Shown piece by piece: positions 1 through 5,501 of a DNA stretch of 5,501 nucleotides. Under the pieces are notes generated by a model. That model was not told the origin of the DNA. It made no database searches and saw only the letters and a list, made by a program, of their open reading frames with translations. The stretch is from Burkholderiaceae bacterium (GTDB taxonomy: Bacteria > Pseudomonadota > Gammaproteobacteria > Burkholderiales > Burkholderiaceae): the NCBI GenBank assembly GCA_025057735.1, contig JANWUU010000082.1:1-5501 (forward strand), given 5' to 3'. Positions within the stretch are counted from its first letter, which is position 1, and each line of letters starts with the position of its first letter. The position numbers were made by a program, and so were the translations under genes.

Positions 1-879
1 GACCGCAGCCTCCAGGTCGCCGTAGACGAGCTGGTAGCACGACGCGCCGGCGAGCAGCCGTCCCAGCGCATCGAAGGCATCCGGACCGAGGAATTCGTAA
101 TTGAATGAATTGACGGCCAGGCGCGCGAAGGCGCGCGCGCGGGGCAACGGCTCCAGCGCGACGCCGCGGCCGGCTTCGAAGCGCGGGAAGATCACAAGCG
201 TCGTCTGGGCGGGTCGATGACAGGCGGCCACGTCCTCGGGGCGCGGTGCCAGGTGCGCCACCGTGCCCTTGTGCGTCTTCGGGAAGCGCGGGCCGATCAC
301 CGCCTCTGGTGCGAAGCGCGCGATGACATCGATCGATTCGTTCTTCAGCGCCACCGGGCGCAGCAGGGGAAGCAATTGCGCGTCGGTGAGCCGCACGACA
401 CCGAACTCGTCGGACAGCAGCCGCCAGCCGCGCAGCGCCAGCGCGGCCGTCAGCGTGCTCTTGCCGGCTCCGGGCATGGCCGGCAGCAGCACGGCGCGCC
501 CGCCGCGCTCCACCGCGCCGGCATGCAGCAGCAGATGGCAGGTCAGGCGGCTGGCCAGCGCGTAATTGAGCCCCCATTCGAGCAGCGGCAAGGGCGTGTC
601 GCGCGGAAACGGCTCCAGCTCGCGCGCGCCGTCGATCACCAGTTCCACCTGGGGCCGCAGCCAGCGCCGCAGCCCGCGGCCGCGCCTCAGCCGCACCGAC
701 ACGTCGCAACCGGCCGCCGCCGGCAGCGGCGCATAGCCGCGGTAGAGGATGCGCAGCAGCGGCGCAAGCTCCGGCAGATCGCTGCGGATACGGATGCGCG
801 CGGCGCCGCAGTCGAGCGTCAAACCGTCGTTGAAAAGCCGTTCGCGCAGGGGCGCGAGGTCCAGGTCAGCCAGGGGCAA
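1..879 (-). CDS. HprK-related kinase A (HPr-rel-A system), 3' end cut by the window edge
   Basis: The frame is open for 293 codons to the window edge and shows an HPr kinase-like P-loop fold. Residues 115-123 contain the H-A-G-A stretch that precedes the P-loop in HPr kinases. A Walker A motif, A-M-P-G-A-G-K-S-T, lies at about 134-142 (pattern A-x4-G-K-S), and an S-D-E-F acidic motif, the likely metal/catalytic site, at 156-159. The blocks L-K-N-E-S-I-D-V-I (178-186), K-G-T-V-A-H-L (204-210) and N-S-F-N-Y-E (257-262) are typical, from memory, of the family named HprK-related kinase A. I see no HPrK/P phosphorylase signature, so phosphorylation of HPr itself is not implied. The target is unknown. 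Family members are about 300 residues, so only a few C-terminal residues should be missing. No ATG lies upstream of the P-loop. I chose TTG at 879 because GGAG sits 6 bases before it and the L-P-L-A-D-L opening matches the family. The start overlaps the PqqD-like gene by 14 bases, suggesting coupled translation. Confidence 0.88.
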   Translation of the reverse strand, partial: MPLADLDLAPLRERLFNDGLTLDCGAARIRIRSDLPELAPLLRILYRGYAPLPAAAGCDVSVRLRRGRGLRRWLRPQVELVIDGARELEPFPRDTPLPLLEWGLNYALASRLTCHLLLHAGAVERGGRAVLLPAMPGAGKSTLTAALALRGWRLLSDEFGVVRLTDAQLLPLLRPVALKNESIDVIARFAPEAVIGPRFPKTHKGTVAHLAPRPEDVAACHRPAQTTLVIFPRFEAGRGVALEPLPRARAFARLAVNSFNYEFLGPDAFDALGRLLAGASCYQLVYGDLEAAV

Positions 880-1186
880 GCCCGTCTCCGTCCAGCGCGC
901 GCACGAGCGACAGTTGGGACAGATCGCTCAACAACTGCCGCGCGTACTCCGCGGCGGCGGCGCGCTCTTCCTCGCACAGCAGGTCGGACAGCAGCGCGGC
1001 GACTTCCAGCTCCGTCCGGGGGGCCTGCTGCAGGAATTCGAGTACCGCCGCGGCGGCGGCGTTCAGCACATGCGCATCCCAGCTCAGCGGTTCGAAAACG
1101 ACGACTTCGTCGTCGAAGTCGTGCACCTTTAATCCCGGCGCCGCGGCGTAGCGACGCCGGCTGCCGTTCGGCGCTGCTTCCCGCAA
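866..1186 (-). CDS. PqqD family peptide chaperone, HPr-rel-A type
   Basis: This 106-residue protein has the PqqD-like winged-helix pattern. It has A-P-G-L at 16-19, a D-D-E-V-V-V-F-E-P strand at 25-33, L-S-W-D-A-H-V-L-N at 34-42, an alanine-rich helix with L-E-F-L, and a C-terminal helical part ending in L-S-L-V. PqqD domains bind the leader of a precursor peptide and present it to a modifying enzyme. The version ending just before an HprK-related kinase is the HPr-rel-A type, whose substrate is not established. The first codon appears to be TTG (1186), 4 bases after the stop of the upstream gene. The only other usable in-frame start is GTG at 1126, which would remove the conserved A-P-G-L. 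No clear Shine-Dalgarno precedes the TTG, so re-initiation from the upstream gene is plausible. The 20 or so N-terminal residues are not conserved in character, so the exact start is uncertain. Confidence 0.82.
   Translation of the reverse strand: MREAAPNGSRRRYAAAPGLKVHDFDDEVVVFEPLSWDAHVLNAAAAAVLEFLQQAPRTELEVAALLSDLLCEEERAAAAEYARQLLSDLSQLSLVRALDGDGLAPG
886..889 (-). promoter_or_regulatory. Ribosome binding site for the kinase (TTG start)
   Basis: On the minus strand GGAG is followed by a 6-base spacer and then TTG at 879. It lies inside the end of the PqqD-like gene. It decides the kinase start, because there is no ATG or GTG in a sensible position upstream in this frame. Confidence 0.5.
1101..1122 (-). 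repeat. Perfect 9-bp inverted repeat inside the PqqD-like gene
   Basis: ACGACTTCG and CGAAGTCGT flank a 4-base loop. In the mRNA this would be a stable stem-loop over about codons 22-29, near the start of the PqqD-like reading frame. It may simply reflect alternating Asp/Glu and Val codons (D-F-D-D-E-V-V-V). A role in translation or mRNA processing is possible but not shown. Confidence 0.5.
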
Positions 1187-1190
1187 GGAT

Positions 1191-1655
1191 TCAGGCGAGG
1201 CGGCGGAACGAGCCGTAGCAGCTCATCGTGGTGGCGACCGAACCGCGCGGCTTCTGCAGCGTGATCTTCGAGTACTGCGTGCCGGTGGATTTGTCGAACC
1301 ACACCAACGCCCAGCGGTTCGTCTGGCCCGAAACCTGCCATCCCGGCGGCAGGATCGGCCCGAAGGAAAGCTCCGCGTGCGGCGGCGCCACGCTCACATA
1401 GACGTTCTTGAGCGGATCCAGATAGAAGTTGCCTTTCACGTGGCCTTGATAGGCGAGCTGCACGACGGGCACCTGCTTGCGGAACCAGCCGTCGGCCGTC
1501 GTGGTGAAGAACTGCGCCGGCTGATGGCGGTCGAGGTTGCGCAGGCAGCGGCCGAAGCTCGTCATCGACGTCGCGGATGCCGAGGACACGGTCAGCACGG
1601 CAGGCGCTGCCAGCGACCCCTGCAGCAGCTTCCGGCGCTTGCGGTCAGCACTCAT
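1191..1655 (-). CDS. Small exported-type protein with RR leader, upstream of the HPr-rel-A genes (unrecognised)
   Basis: This 154-residue protein belongs to no named family that I recognise. Its N-terminus is basic, D-R-K-R-R-K-L-L-Q-G (4-13). A modest hydrophobic stretch, S-L-A-A-P-A-V-L-T-V (14-23), follows, and A-S-A at 26-28 could be a signal peptidase site. The RR-x-L-L resembles a twin-arginine (Tat) leader but lacks the usual preceding S/T and has a short core. The rest is mostly beta-like and aromatic-rich, with W57, W106, W115 and W119. There are only two cysteines, C37 (F-G-R-C-L) and C146 (S-C-Y-G-S-F), one near each end of the mature part. These could form a disulfide or be modification sites. 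I chose ATG at 1655 because GGAGGG precedes it and the signal-like leader then begins at once. ATG at 1691 would add 12 unlikely residues. It is the first gene of the leftward cluster and ends 4 bases before the PqqD-like TTG start. It could be the substrate of the kinase/PqqD pair, which is inference from position and leader. Confidence 0.75.
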   Translation of the reverse strand: MSADRKRRKLLQGSLAAPAVLTVSSASATSMTSFGRCLRNLDRHQPAQFFTTTADGWFRKQVPVVQLAYQGHVKGNFYLDPLKNVYVSVAPPHAELSFGPILPPGWQVSGQTNRWALVWFDKSTGTQYSKITLQKPRGSVATTMSCYGSFRRLA

Positions 1656-1832: not shown

Positions 1833-2624
1833 TCAGGCGGCGACTGCGCCGGCCTCCAGGCTGGCCCGCACCTCGGCGCGCACCTGCTCGGTCAGCTCCG
1901 CCTTCAGCGCGGCGAAGGCGGGCGAGGTCTTCATCGAATAATGGCGCGGGTGCGGCAGCTCGATGCGCCGGTCGACCTTGACGCGGCCGGGCCGGGCGCT
2001 CATCACCACCACGCGGCTGCCCATGAAGACCGCCTCGTCGATGTCGTGCGTGACGAACAGCACGGTCTTTTTCTCCGCCTCCCAGATGCCGAGCAGCAGC
2101 TCCTGCATCAGCTCGCGCGTCTGGTGATCGAGCGCGCCGAACGGTTCGTCCATCAGCAGGATGCGCGGATCGTTGGCGAGCGCGCGCGCCAGCGCCGTGC
2201 GCTGCTGCATGCCGCCGGAGAGCTGCTTCGGGTAGTGCTGCTCAAAGCCGGTCAGACCGACCTTGGCGAGAAAGCCGCGCGCGATCTCGATTCTCTGGCG
2301 GCGCGGCAGCCCGCGCTCGCGCAGCCCGAAGCAGACGTTCTCCAGCACGGTGAGCCACGGAAACAGCGTGTAGCTCTGGAACACCATGCCGCGGTCGGCG
2401 CCGGGGCCGGTGATCGCGCGGCCGTCGAGCAGCACCTGGCCGCTGCTCGGGCGGTCCAGCCCGGCGACGATGCGCAGCAGCGTGCTCTTGCCGCAGCCGG
2501 AGGGGCCGAGGATCGTGATGAAGTCGTTTTCCGCCACCTCCAGGTCGGTGGCGAGCAGCGCGACCGTCTCGCCGTGGCGGGAGGCGAAGCGGCGCGACAC
2601 GCCGCGGATGGACAGGATCGACAT
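1833..2624 (-). CDS. ABC transporter ATP-binding protein, NitT/TauT (nitrate/sulfonate/taurine) type
   Basis: This 263-residue cytoplasmic ATPase powers the importer whose permease is encoded just upstream. All nucleotide-binding motifs are intact. They are Walker A G-P-S-G-C-G-K-S-T at 40-48, Q-loop glutamine 83 (M-V-F-Q-S-Y), signature L-S-G-G-M-Q-Q-R at 135-142, Walker B I-L-L-M-D-E-P at 155-161, D-loop A-L-D at 164-166 and H-loop histidine 193. The tail motif S-A-R-P-G-R (209-214), followed by I-E-L-P-H-P-R, is typical of the SsuB/TauB/NrtD group. The frame is open far upstream, but that part is a shadow of the permease. ATG at 2624 lies 2 bases after the permease stop, has AGGA 8 bases upstream and gives the normal family length. 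This spacing implies translational coupling. The substrate cannot be read from the ATPase. Its place behind hutU-hutH suggests histidine, urocanate or a related compound rather than taurine or nitrate. Confidence 0.93.
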   Translation of the reverse strand: MSILSIRGVSRRFASRHGETVALLATDLEVAENDFITILGPSGCGKSTLLRIVAGLDRPSSGQVLLDGRAITGPGADRGMVFQSYTLFPWLTVLENVCFGLRERGLPRRQRIEIARGFLAKVGLTGFEQHYPKQLSGGMQQRTALARALANDPRILLMDEPFGALDHQTRELMQELLLGIWEAEKKTVLFVTHDIDEAVFMGSRVVVMSARPGRVKVDRRIELPHPRHYSMKTSPAFAALKAELTEQVRAEVRASLEAGAVAA

Positions 2625-2626
2625 CG

Positions 2627-3472
2627 TCAGCGTCCTAGTTCCGCCCACGGGAACAGGCGGCGGTTGACCCACTTGAACGCGAAGTCGCTGACCAGCCCGA
2701 TCACCCCGATCACGATGATCCCGAAGATGATCTGGTCGGTGGCGAGCAGCGCCTGGCTGTCGGTGATCATGTGGCCGATACCGGAGGAGGCGCCGATCAG
2801 CTCGGCGACGATCACGTAAGTCCAGGCCCAGCCGAGCACGGTGCGCAGAATTTCGGCGATCTCGGGCGCGGCGTTCGGGATCAGCACGCGCAGCACCAGC
2901 GCGCGGTCGCTCGCGCCCAGCGTGTAGGCCGCCTCCACCAGGTCGCGCCGCGTGTTGCCGACCGTGACCGCGATCATCAGCACGAGCTGGAAAAAGCTGC
3001 CGATGAAGATCACCGCCAGCTTTTGCGCCTCGCCGATGCCGGCCCACAGGATCAGCAGCGGGATGAAGGCGCTCGCCGGCAGGTAACGGGCGAAGGACAC
3101 GAACGGCTCGAAGAACGCCTCGACCGGCTTGTACGCGCCCATCGCCACACCCAGCGGCAGCGCGATGGCGGCGGCGATGGCGAAGCCGCCGACCACGCGC
3201 CACACGGTCATGCCGATGTCGTGCGCGAAGTTGAACTCCACCAGCAGCCGCCAGCCGCTGGCGAGCATCGACAGCGGATCGGCGAGGAAGGTCTTCGGCA
3301 CCCAGCCGCTGAAGGTCACGGCGGCCCAGACGCCGACGAACAGCGCGAAGAAGGCCACGCCGAGGGCCACGCGCGTGGCCGGCGCCACGGGTACGAGCGG
3401 CCGCAGCAGCGGCTCGCGGCGCGCCGCGGGGCGCGCGGTGGCCGCCGGCGCTTCGATCGGGGTACTGCTCAT
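2627..3472 (-). CDS. ABC transporter permease, NitT/TauT type (BPD_transp_1 family)
   Basis: This 281-residue inner-membrane protein forms the channel of a binding-protein-dependent importer, probably as a homodimer. After a polar, Ala/Arg-rich cytoplasmic N-terminus of about 30 residues I see six likely membrane segments, at about 34-55, 91-113, 130-146, 150-171, 208-226 and 247-266. The cytoplasmic EAA loop that docks the ATPase is E-A-A-Y-T-L-G-A-S-D-R at 180-190, followed by L-I-P-N at 197-200. The motif G-W-A-W-T-Y-V-I-V-A-E-L (214-225) is characteristic of SsuC/TauC-like permeases. I chose ATG at 3472, 25 bases after the hutH stop, because it gives the usual family length. A weak GAGG lies about 10 bases upstream. 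The frame stays open into hutH, but the extra residues are a shadow. The partner ATPase follows directly. No periplasmic binding protein gene is in the window. Confidence 0.92.
   Translation of the reverse strand: MSSTPIEAPAATARPAARREPLLRPLVPVAPATRVALGVAFFALFVGVWAAVTFSGWVPKTFLADPLSMLASGWRLLVEFNFAHDIGMTVWRVVGGFAIAAAIALPLGVAMGAYKPVEAFFEPFVSFARYLPASAFIPLLILWAGIGEAQKLAVIFIGSFFQLVLMIAVTVGNTRRDLVEAAYTLGASDRALVLRVLIPNAAPEIAEILRTVLGWAWTYVIVAELIGASSGIGHMITDSQALLATDQIIFGIIVIGVIGLVSDFAFKWVNRRLFPWAELGR
3365..3380. repeat. 16-base perfect palindrome within the permease gene
   Basis: GGCCACGCGCGTGGCC is fully self-complementary and lies about 90 bases inside the permease gene (around codons 31-36). It could form a cruciform or an mRNA hairpin, but such palindromes arise easily in GC-rich coding DNA. 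No function is claimed. Confidence 0.4.
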
Positions 3473-3497
3473 CGTCGGTCGCCCTCGTCGGTGAATG

Positions 3498-5036
3498 TCA
3501 GGCCGGGATCCACAGCGCCGGCAGATCCGGCAGCGTGCGGAAGATCTGCGACAGCGCGCCGCCGGTGACCAGGCGCGTGGCGCGCTCGATGTCTGGCGCG
3601 AGGCACCGGTCCTGCGCGACGGCCGGACAGTGCGCGCGCAGCATGGCATGCGCCGCCTCCAGCGGCGCGGAGCTGCGCAACGGGCGCAGGAAATCGATGC
3701 CCTGCGCCGCGGCCAGCAGCTCGATGCCGAGGATGTGCGCGGTGTTGGCGATCATCGGCTGCAGCCGGCGCGCCGCGAAGGTGGCCATGCTGACGTGGTC
3801 CTCCTGGTTGGCGGAGGTGGGCAGGGAATCGACGCTCGCCGGGTGCGCGAGCGACTTGTTCTCGCTCGCCAGCGCGGCGGCGGTGACGTGCGCGATCATG
3901 AAGCCGGAGTTCAGCCCCGGCGCGGCGGTCAGGAAGGGCGGCAGGCGCGACACGCCGGCGTCGATCAGCATCGCGATGCGGCGCTCGGCGATCGCGCCCA
4001 CCTCGGCGATCGCCACCGCCATGCCGTCGGCGGCGAGCGCCACCGGTTCGGCGTGGAAATTGCCGCCGGACAGCAGCGCGCCGTCGTCGGCGAACACCAG
4101 CGGGTTGTCGGTCACCGCGTTCGCTTCGCGCAGCAGCACCCGCGCGGCATGGCGCAACTGGTCCAGGCAGGCGCCGACCACCTGCGGCTGGCAGCGCAGC
4201 GAATAGGGATCCTGCACGCGGTCGTCGCCGTGCCGGTGCGAGGCGCGGATCTCGCTGCCCGCCAGCAGCGCGCGGTAATAGCGGGCGACGTCGGCCTGCC
4301 CGGGGTGACCGCGCAGGGCGTGGATGCGCGGGTCGAACGGATCGTCGCTGCCGCGCGCGGCATCGACGGTGAGCGCCCCGATGACCAGTGCCGCTTCCAG
4401 CACCGGCTCGAACGTCAGTAGCGCGTGCAGCGCCAGGGCGGTGGAGACCTGGGTGCCGTTGATCAGCGCCAGCCCCTCCTTGGCCGCCAGCGTCAGCGGC
4501 TCGATGCCGGCCTGCCGCAGCAGCGGCGCGGCGGGCACGCGCTCGCCGCCGGCCAGCATCTCGCCTTCGCCCAGCAGCGCGAGCGTCAGGTGGGCGAGCG
4601 GCGCCAGATCGCCGGAGGCGCCCACCGACCCCTGACTCGGCACGTAGGGCACCAGGCCCGCGTTGAGGACGGCGAGCAGCGTGTCGATCACCACCGGACG
4701 CACGCCCGAATGACCGCGTGCGAGGCTGGCCGCCTTCAGCGCCAGTACCAGCCGCACGACCGCCGGATCGAGCGGGGCGCCCACGCCTGCCGCGTGCGAG
4801 CGGATCAGGTTCAGTTGCAGCGCGGCCAGATCGCCCGCGCCGATGCGCGTGGAGGCGAGCCTGCCGAAGCCGGTGTTCACGCCGTAGACCGGCGCGTCGA
4901 GCGCGGCGGCGCGCTGCAGGACCGCGGCGCTGGCGGCGATCGCGGGCCGGGCGGCGTCGTCCAGCTCGAGGCGGATGCCGCCGGCGTGGATGGCCGCCAG
5001 GTCTTCGAGGTGCAGCGCGCCAGGGACGAGCTTCAT
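3498..5036 (-). CDS. hutH: Histidine ammonia-lyase (histidase)
   Basis: This cytoplasmic 512-residue enzyme converts L-histidine to trans-urocanate and ammonia, the first step of the Hut pathway, and is normally a homotetramer. The A-S-G triad that cyclises into the MIO electrophilic cofactor is at 140-142, within [12 protein letters not shown]. Other active-site residues are present: Y51 (in Y-G-V-N-T-G-F-G), H81, N193 (in N-G-T-Q), Q275, Y278, R281, F327 and E412 (in N-Q-E-D-H-V-S-M). They sit two positions before the residues known in the Pseudomonas putida enzyme. [14 protein letters not shown] supports histidase over phenylalanine or tyrosine ammonia-lyase. Length is typical and the gene looks intact. 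ATG at 5036 begins M-K-L-V-P-G, which fits the family, and no earlier start exists in this frame, but no good Shine-Dalgarno precedes it. It lies downstream of hutU and upstream of the importer genes. Confidence 0.97.
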
Positions 5037-5073
5037 GCGGGTGCGGCAGCCGTCGGCGGTCGGAGCAGGCGCA

Positions 5074-5087
5074 GGCGCTCCCGCGCC
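5074..5087. repeat. Short GC hairpin in the hutU-hutH gap
   Basis: GGCGC-TCCC-GCGCC is a 5-bp inverted repeat with a 4-base loop in the 105-base gap (5037-5141) between hutU and hutH. No T-run follows, and no promoter or small gene is evident in the gap. It could be an mRNA-processing or stability element, or chance. Confidence 0.25.
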
Positions 5088-5141
5088 CGGCGGACGAGCG
5101 AGGCGTTCCGGGCGTGCGCGCGCTGCACGGGGAAAATCCGG

Positions 5142-5501
5142 TCAGCGTGCGAGCATCGGCAGCTTCAGGCCGTGTTCGCGCGCGCAGGCGATCGCCTCTT
5201 CGTAGCCGGCATCGGCATGCCGCATCACGCCGGAGGCCGGATCGTTCCACAGCACGCGCTCGATGCGGCGGGCGGCCGCCTCGGTGCCGTCGCAGACGAT
5301 CACCACGCCGGCGTGCTGCGAGTAACCCATGCCGACACCGCCGCCGTGATGGAAGCTCACCCAGGTCGCGCCGCTGGCGGTGTTAAGCAGCGCGTTCAGC
5401 AGCGGCCAGTCGGACACCGCGTCCGAGCCATCCTTCATCGCCTCCGTCTCGCGGTTCGGCGAGGCGACCGAGCCGGCATCCAGATGGTCGCGCCCGATGA
5501 C
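5142..5501 (-). CDS. hutU: Urocanate hydratase (urocanase), C-terminal part, 5' end beyond the window
   Basis: The last 119 residues and the stop are visible, and the frame runs open through the right edge. Urocanase is an NAD+-dependent cytoplasmic enzyme that hydrates urocanate to 4-imidazolone-5-propionate, the second Hut step. Diagnostic blocks are [20 protein letters not shown], then [29 protein letters not shown], and near the end [15 protein letters not shown]. The full enzyme is about 555 residues, so roughly four fifths lies off-window, including the active-site cysteine (near residue 410 in P. putida). The internal ATG at 5438 is not the start, since conserved sequence continues upstream of it. 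hutH follows after 105 bases, and the operon promoter must lie outside the window. Confidence 0.96.

Follow-up and report, generated by a model that had tools for sequence, protein, structure and literature searches.

A widespread bacterial gene cassette for the probable leader-guided phosphorylation of a small, predicted Tat substrate

The closest described counterparts of the genes studied here act on peptides, and both groups are cited from retrieved excerpts of the papers concerned. For lasso peptides such as paeninodin and pseudomycoidin, the HPr kinase-like enzyme PadeK phosphorylates the C-terminal serine, and the nucleotidyltransferase-like PsmN acts afterwards by adding a hexose, possibly a nucleotide first, onto the phosphoserine (PMC9266682). 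The linear polyphosphorylated peptides (LPPs), Bacillota peptides with a YxxP leader (Nat Commun 2026; PMC13381572), depend on a discrete recognition element for ribosomally synthesised and post-translationally modified peptides (RiPP recognition element, RRE), an HprK-like kinase, a nucleoside triphosphate (NTP) transferase and a dedicated SpI-like peptidase and exporter, and the search that discovered them began from clusters within capsular polysaccharide loci. Here we analysed a stretch of 5,501 nucleotides from a Burkholderiaceae bacterium (contig JANWUU010000082.1; hereafter the window), which carries on its reverse strand three adjoining genes for a small leader-bearing protein (the cargo), a PqqD-like protein and an HprK_rel_A kinase. 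The set recurs in many bacteria; it seems to read a conserved tag on the small, presumably exported protein and probably phosphorylates that protein, as judged from gene content, order and conservation.

The kinase/PqqD pair is already named in NCBIfam (TIGR04352, HprK_rel_A; TIGR04353, PqqD_rel_X), and the window kinase (positions 1..879; 342.9 bits, cut-off 200) and the adjoining PqqD-like protein (866..1186; 58.5 bits, cut-off 35) exceed both curated cut-offs. These HPr-rel-A models name a kinase and a chaperone; the leader protein is merely ‘hypothetical’ in both plasmid records examined (see below). No named substrate for the pair, and no paper on a twin-arginine signal combined with a RiPP leader recognition element, was found among open-licence PubMed Central papers, and the retrieved excerpt of PMC1569441 mentions neither HPr nor PqqD. 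The same literature yielded nothing on HPr-rel-A, on an HprK-related kinase with or without PqqD, or on PF14907, TIGR04352 and TIGR04353; what it yielded on PqqD together with HPr kinase concerned lasso peptides, and the LPP paper alone joined a RiPP recognition element to HprK. The cargo gene (1191..1655, 154 amino acids) is separated from the PqqD-like gene by a 4-base gap (1187-1190), and the PqqD-like and kinase genes overlap by 14 bases (866-879). The original prediction, made from the letters of the window alone, had described three tightly packed genes for a small protein with an arginine-arginine (RR) leader, a PqqD-type protein and an HPr-kinase-like enzyme, in a recognised neighbourhood with no known proven substrate; its coordinates and gene identities hold, and its reading of the neighbourhood is supported. 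The cargo start was placed at the ATG at 1655, closely preceded by GGAGGG; a longer reading of 166 amino acids begins at 1691.

A contig scan with a kinase alignment gave 42 loci. Whole genomes were also sampled from three phyla, each represented by a seed genome that is included in the counts: kinases over the TIGR04352 cut-off were present in 61 of 398 genomes for the Rubrivivax seed, in 4 of 247 for a seed titled Acidobacteria and in 3 of 246 for one titled Planctomycetales. After prior exclusion of genome-handle repeats (L043-L050) and sub-cut-off loci (L082-L107 and L110-L136), 106 loci were used, from which L061, L077 and L147 were dropped at ≥95% identity to leave 103 non-redundant loci; co-occurrence was counted in the 99 with at least 1,000 nucleotides upstream of the kinase domain. 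PqqD genes, called with an iterated local profile (E < 1 in the expected place, E < 0.01 elsewhere), were present in 90 of these 99 loci and lay directly upstream of the kinase in 88, which argues that the co-occurrence is not due to chance. A leader-bearing protein was found in 94 of the 99: 86 by profile (84 in the slot before the kinase and 2 displaced), 7 by eye (L051, L053, L054, L138, L148, L150 and L154) and 1 in trans, the cargo of L166 lying far from the kinase, in L178. All 90 PqqD-positive loci have a leader protein (84 by profile, including the 2 displaced with PqqD, 5 by eye and 1 in trans), and the five loci without a leader protein (L068, L069, L075, L141 and L151) also have no PqqD. 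Four loci (L148, L152, L153 and L154) have a cargo and no PqqD call, and in L148 and L152 the slot holds a frame that by eye looks PqqD-like. The three genes are thus common companions, not the rare ones that would have spoken against the original prediction, and these counts support its proposal of a peptide- or protein-phosphorylation system with a substrate encoded in the cluster.

Neither Pfam nor NCBIfam has a family that the cargo matched; of 116 candidates, 72, among them its own entry, matched it at E ≤ 0.001, and 30 of these 72 were aligned (alignment A1). Conservation is concentrated at the two ends of the protein, with a mean pairwise identity of 81.5% over residues 7-28, 61.9% over 29-38, 38.6% over 39-112 and 57.4% over 113-149. 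The best-kept region is the twin-arginine leader (residues 7-28, 1572..1637, reverse strand; RRKLLQGSLAAPAVLTVSSASA), which reads RRxxLxGSLAAPVVLTVSSASA in A1 and has, in the window protein, RR at residues 7-8 and SASA at 25-28, as in the n-region and AxA-type cleavage site of a signal for twin-arginine translocation (Tat). A first-pass leader profile built from the window’s family alone (residues 5-40) matched 47 of 13,064 stop-to-stop frames, all drawn from the 103 loci, at E < 0.01; 45 of the 47 lie in the slot before the kinase, some of them (for example, those of L001-L003) being close relatives of the window protein, and the two outside it (L006 and L066) adjoin displaced PqqD genes. The iterated profile gave 86 matches, 84 of them in the slot, its later rounds including earlier finds. 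When 24 genomes with a kinase over the cut-off were compared with 24 without, the 16 leader matches of at least 37 bits all fell in kinase-positive genomes, at most one per genome, and the top score in kinase-negative genomes was 19.9 bits; the profile is therefore not a general finder of Tat signals. Nine of these 16 genomes supplied rows to the leader alignment and seven did not. In one genome (G221) kinase and cargo are 163 kb apart, yet this cargo keeps both the leader and the C-terminal motif described below. The best further match anywhere (26.7 bits) is a leader-like stretch in an 839-amino acid frame away from the cassette (L179 1469-3988, reverse strand, genome G032), which may be a second target or an ordinary Tat protein.

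Redox-enzyme maturation proteins serve as chaperones of Tat signals. An alternative interpretation is that the cargo is exported by Tat like any other substrate, with the PqqD-like protein as its signal chaperone, the kinase exerting regulation through PqqD or the leader and not modifying the mature protein. RR is present in all 84 profile leaders and AxA in 72, although loosely placed in these alanine-rich leaders, and PqqD and leader stay together even away from the kinase (L006 and L066), all of which would fit this account; but we consider this account quite improbable, because it leaves a C-terminal motif far from the leader unexplained and because a nucleotidyltransferase beside the kinase, or fused to it in one locus (both described below), points to a two-step modification. 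TatC was found in 37 of 37 genomes tested, which merely fails to refute Tat export.

The other conserved end of the cargo carries the motif S145-C-Y-G-S149-F (1206..1223, reverse strand). In A1, C37, S145, C146 and S149 are invariant and S33 nearly so; S149 is the candidate phospho-acceptor, and S33-F-x-x-C37, just past the leader (1545..1559, reverse strand), is a second candidate site. Of the 79 slot proteins that reach 100 amino acids, 68 have the pattern [ST]C[YWFLM]xS[FILVM] within their last 45 residues, as do 5 of 4,237 other frames. Among the 86 cargos found by profile the pattern is present in 70 (shuffled mean 0.06), and when the serine position of the pattern was left free, all 74 matches had serine there. 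Near the leader, 77 of the 84 proteins with a profile leader have a post-leader cysteine, and 70 of these 77 carry a serine 3-5 residues before the first one. A second class of cargo, recognised by eye, is without the C-terminal motif; its members have an SPG-x-W region and, following the leader, a cysteine and a Ser-Gly stretch (L053, L054, L148, L150 and L154; L067 and L138 in part only). A likeness of the L020 cargo to ZipA_C (21.1 bits, cut-off 23) was not used.

The kinase keeps its candidate catalytic residues. Within its P-loop, PAMPGAGKST (454..483), K140 is conserved in 103 of 103 aligned kinases, as is H119 (523..525), which aligns with the histidine of HPr kinase/phosphorylase (HPrK/P) in a weak alignment to 1jb1 (E = 0.22); D157-E158 (406..411) aligns in the same comparison with the HPrK/P Asp-Asp pair, and each of the two is kept in 104 of 104. 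H119, K140 and D157 are thus invariant where aligned, and the second aspartate of the HPrK/P pair is replaced by Glu158 throughout. The window lacks about 12 C-terminal residues of the kinase, which run beyond its edge, judged by the 99% identical, 305-amino acid P0073. The predicted model is confident (predicted local distance difference test, pLDDT, 92.7) and over its full length matches phosphoenolpyruvate carboxykinase better than HPrK/P. Membership in the HPrK/P family itself was rejected, with 15.5 bits to TIGR00679 (cut-off 240) and weak HPrK/P matches only in a PDB sequence search. Some kinase homologues carry the precomputed Pfam assignment PF27840.1, which hmmscan of the window kinase did not report.

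The window ends within the kinase gene. In its closest relative in the genome scan, a Burkholderiaceae metagenome-assembled genome (L001) with a 93% identical kinase, an NTP_transf_5 gene (PF14907; 172.5 bits, cut-off 31.2) stands directly after the kinase, and the same holds in 78 of 99 loci with enough downstream sequence. In L031 (10001-12103) kinase and NTP_transf_5 are fused into a single 700-amino acid protein. Four loci (L056, L063, L137 and L143) instead have an open reading frame of about 500-570 amino acids after the kinase, those of L056 and L063 still open where the retrieved sequence stops. Of the two enzymes that the original prediction had suggested might lie to the left of the window, the nucleotidyltransferase is supported by L001 and most other loci; the asparagine-synthetase-like enzyme was not found for the window or L001 and occurs in few loci (L009 and L035 by profile). 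In L009 it stands immediately before the cargo (6446-9034); its scores, 245.1 bits for a model of the XrtA amidotransferase and 89.3 bits for one of a lasso cyclase, lie below the respective cut-offs of 816.9 and 525.

Compared with the described systems, the window holds the RRE-like protein and the kinase of the LPP enzyme set and L001 the NTP transferase, and the likeness extends to a conserved leader and to polysaccharide-gene settings (PMC13381572). In contrast to the LPPs, the cassette has a twin-arginine leader, a protein-sized cargo and a C-terminal SC-x-x-S motif. A similar kinase and a nucleotidyltransferase-like enzyme also serve paeninodin and pseudomycoidin, but the cargos examined here are about 130-250 amino acids long, and neither a macrolactam cyclase nor a B2 peptidase recurred among the 42 loci (gene clustering only, with no per-locus profile search). 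No SpI-like peptidase or exporter recurred either when long frames within about 6 kb were clustered without a profile search; the only clusters present in more than 7 of the 42 loci were those of the kinase, the nucleotidyltransferase, the cargo and PqqD, together with a single group of antisense frames. Since the enzymes are those of the lasso and LPP systems but the leader is of the RR type, the cargo has the size of a protein and the clustering shows neither a peptidase nor an exporter that recurs, we propose leader-guided phosphorylation followed by Tat export of one small protein, with a nucleotidyltransferase step where that gene is present, and regard this as the probable function of the cassette. 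The PqqD-like protein would bind the twin-arginine leader as an RRE binds a leader peptide, and would pass the cargo to the kinase, which would phosphorylate one of the conserved serines flanking the folded middle, S149 of the SC-x-x-S motif being the best candidate and S33 the alternative. Where present, NTP_transf_5 may then add a further group, a sugar or a nucleotide, to the phosphoserine. The leader would double as a Tat signal peptide, so that the finished protein would leave through Tat and an ordinary signal peptidase would remove the leader.

That the cassette is itself a member of the LPP family, transplanted to Gram-negative bacteria, seems highly improbable. The shared set of discrete RRE, HprK-like kinase and NTP transferase (PMC13381572), the polysaccharide-gene context of some loci and a conserved N-terminus followed by variable sequence would fit such an origin, but the dedicated peptidase and exporter are absent from the recurring genes, the leader has RR and no conserved tyrosine or tryptophan before the proline, and the protein-sized cargo mostly ends in a conserved motif. 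Px[VILMFAT] is present in 81 of the 84 profile leaders with mostly A, V, L, S or F at the third residue before the proline, and the LPP motif [Y/W]xxPx[LVIFA] is not a conserved feature of these leaders.

Some of the loci lie in an XrtA/PEP-CTERM exopolysaccharide setting, as indicated by genes over NCBIfam cut-offs: L005 has PrsK and the PEP-CTERM response regulator, L042 has PrsK, and L035 has four genes associated with XrtA. Clusters with XrtA/PEP-CTERM or sugar-dehydrogenase representatives touch 14 of the 42 loci, some of which have short flanks. The chief rival to protein phosphorylation is a small-molecule role in polysaccharide synthesis, in which the substrate of the kinase and the nucleotidyltransferase is a sugar or lipid intermediate on the way to an exopolysaccharide, the leader protein is a Tat-exported structural or accessory protein of the same locus, and PqqD aids its folding or export. 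We consider this unlikely because 90 of 99 kinase loci also have PqqD and a leader protein (one cargo in trans), the invariant near-terminal serine and the conserved leader resemble recognition sites, and such kinases working with RREs modify peptides (PMC9266682, PMC13381572). A fuller form of phosphorylation and export, in which the Tat signal is the leader bound by the RRE and the near-terminal serine is phosphorylated and capped by a sugar or nucleotide to yield a secreted phospho(glyco)protein that in some lineages belongs to exopolysaccharide loci, is offered tentatively, as a possibility somewhat short of even.

Several observations weigh against phosphorylation and export of the cargo. 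Five loci have a lone kinase, whose substrate may differ; by eye, that of L069 lies beside a glycosyltransferase-like frame and that of L141 beside a sugar-dehydrogenase-like frame. The strict C-terminal motif is absent from 16 of the 86 profile cargos and from the second cargo class, and NTP_transf_5 is not adjacent in 21 of 99 loci. The LPP NTP transferase LppN was inactive in the published expression test, according to the retrieved excerpt (PMC13381572). Of 30 PqqD_rel_X stretches, no more than 10 had a Pfam PqqD match at E ≤ 0.01. The window protein itself falls at the border, its full open reading frame scoring 22.7 bits and a trimmed version 23.6 (gathering score 23.4); a profile search of PDB matched the TfuB1 lasso RRE (full length, E = 0.084), ranked behind four designed repeat proteins. 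No leader match of 37 bits was seen in eight of the 24 kinase-positive genomes (best 21.1), their leaders being diverged or of the second cargo class. The general Tat model TIGR01409 (TAT_signal_seq) did not match the window protein and gave a single sub-threshold match (14.8 bits against 16.7) among 9 cargos scanned. Finally, the AlphaFold2 model of the cargo is poor (pLDDT 60.9), with a small beta core and both ends at low confidence, and Foldseek returned no match at E ≤ 0.001, so that no fold is claimed.

The kinase/chaperone pair, known to us from family models only, thereby gains a concrete class of candidate substrate, for which sites of recognition and modification can be predicted; until now this likely target carried no name beyond ‘hypothetical’. 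If the proposed mechanism is correct, it would join RiPP-style leader recognition to Tat export, would place secreted, enzymatically phosphorylated proteins in many Gram-negative bacteria (given the kinase in 61 of 398 sampled genomes of one phylum) and would carry the chemistry described for LPPs in 2026 over from short peptides to whole proteins.

Four plasmid records matched the kinase, and none matched the window small protein in a separate plasmid search. Of the two records examined, the Sphingomonas parapaucimobilis plasmid has all four genes annotated, the cargo as a ‘hypothetical protein’ with leader and motif (TCFLSV). The Vibrio alfacsensis plasmid encodes a hypothetical RR-leader protein that resembles the second cargo class and has no motif, an unannotated 84-amino acid frame in the place of PqqD, then the kinase and a nucleotidyltransferase.

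Sigma-54-like sites were seen upstream of 39 of 84 cargo genes (shuffled mean 5.1), and sites scoring at least 9 of 12 in 37 of 79 loci; the reverse strand gave 1 of 79, and a sense-strand coding control 21 of 77. Because the coding control scored so highly, a sigma-54-like promoter is only a weak lead, and the window has no such site upstream of its cargo gene. A scan for terminators and promoters between window positions 1600 and 1900 found nothing. A palindrome, TTTGTCGGACAAA, lies at about 1740-1752, between the cargo gene and an ABC transporter gene. The region 1833-5501 (reverse strand) holds genes for an ABC transporter ATPase and permease, whose best NCBIfam matches, to SaoA/SaoP and taurine-type models, are all below cut-off, and beside them genes that look like hutH and hutU from their translations.
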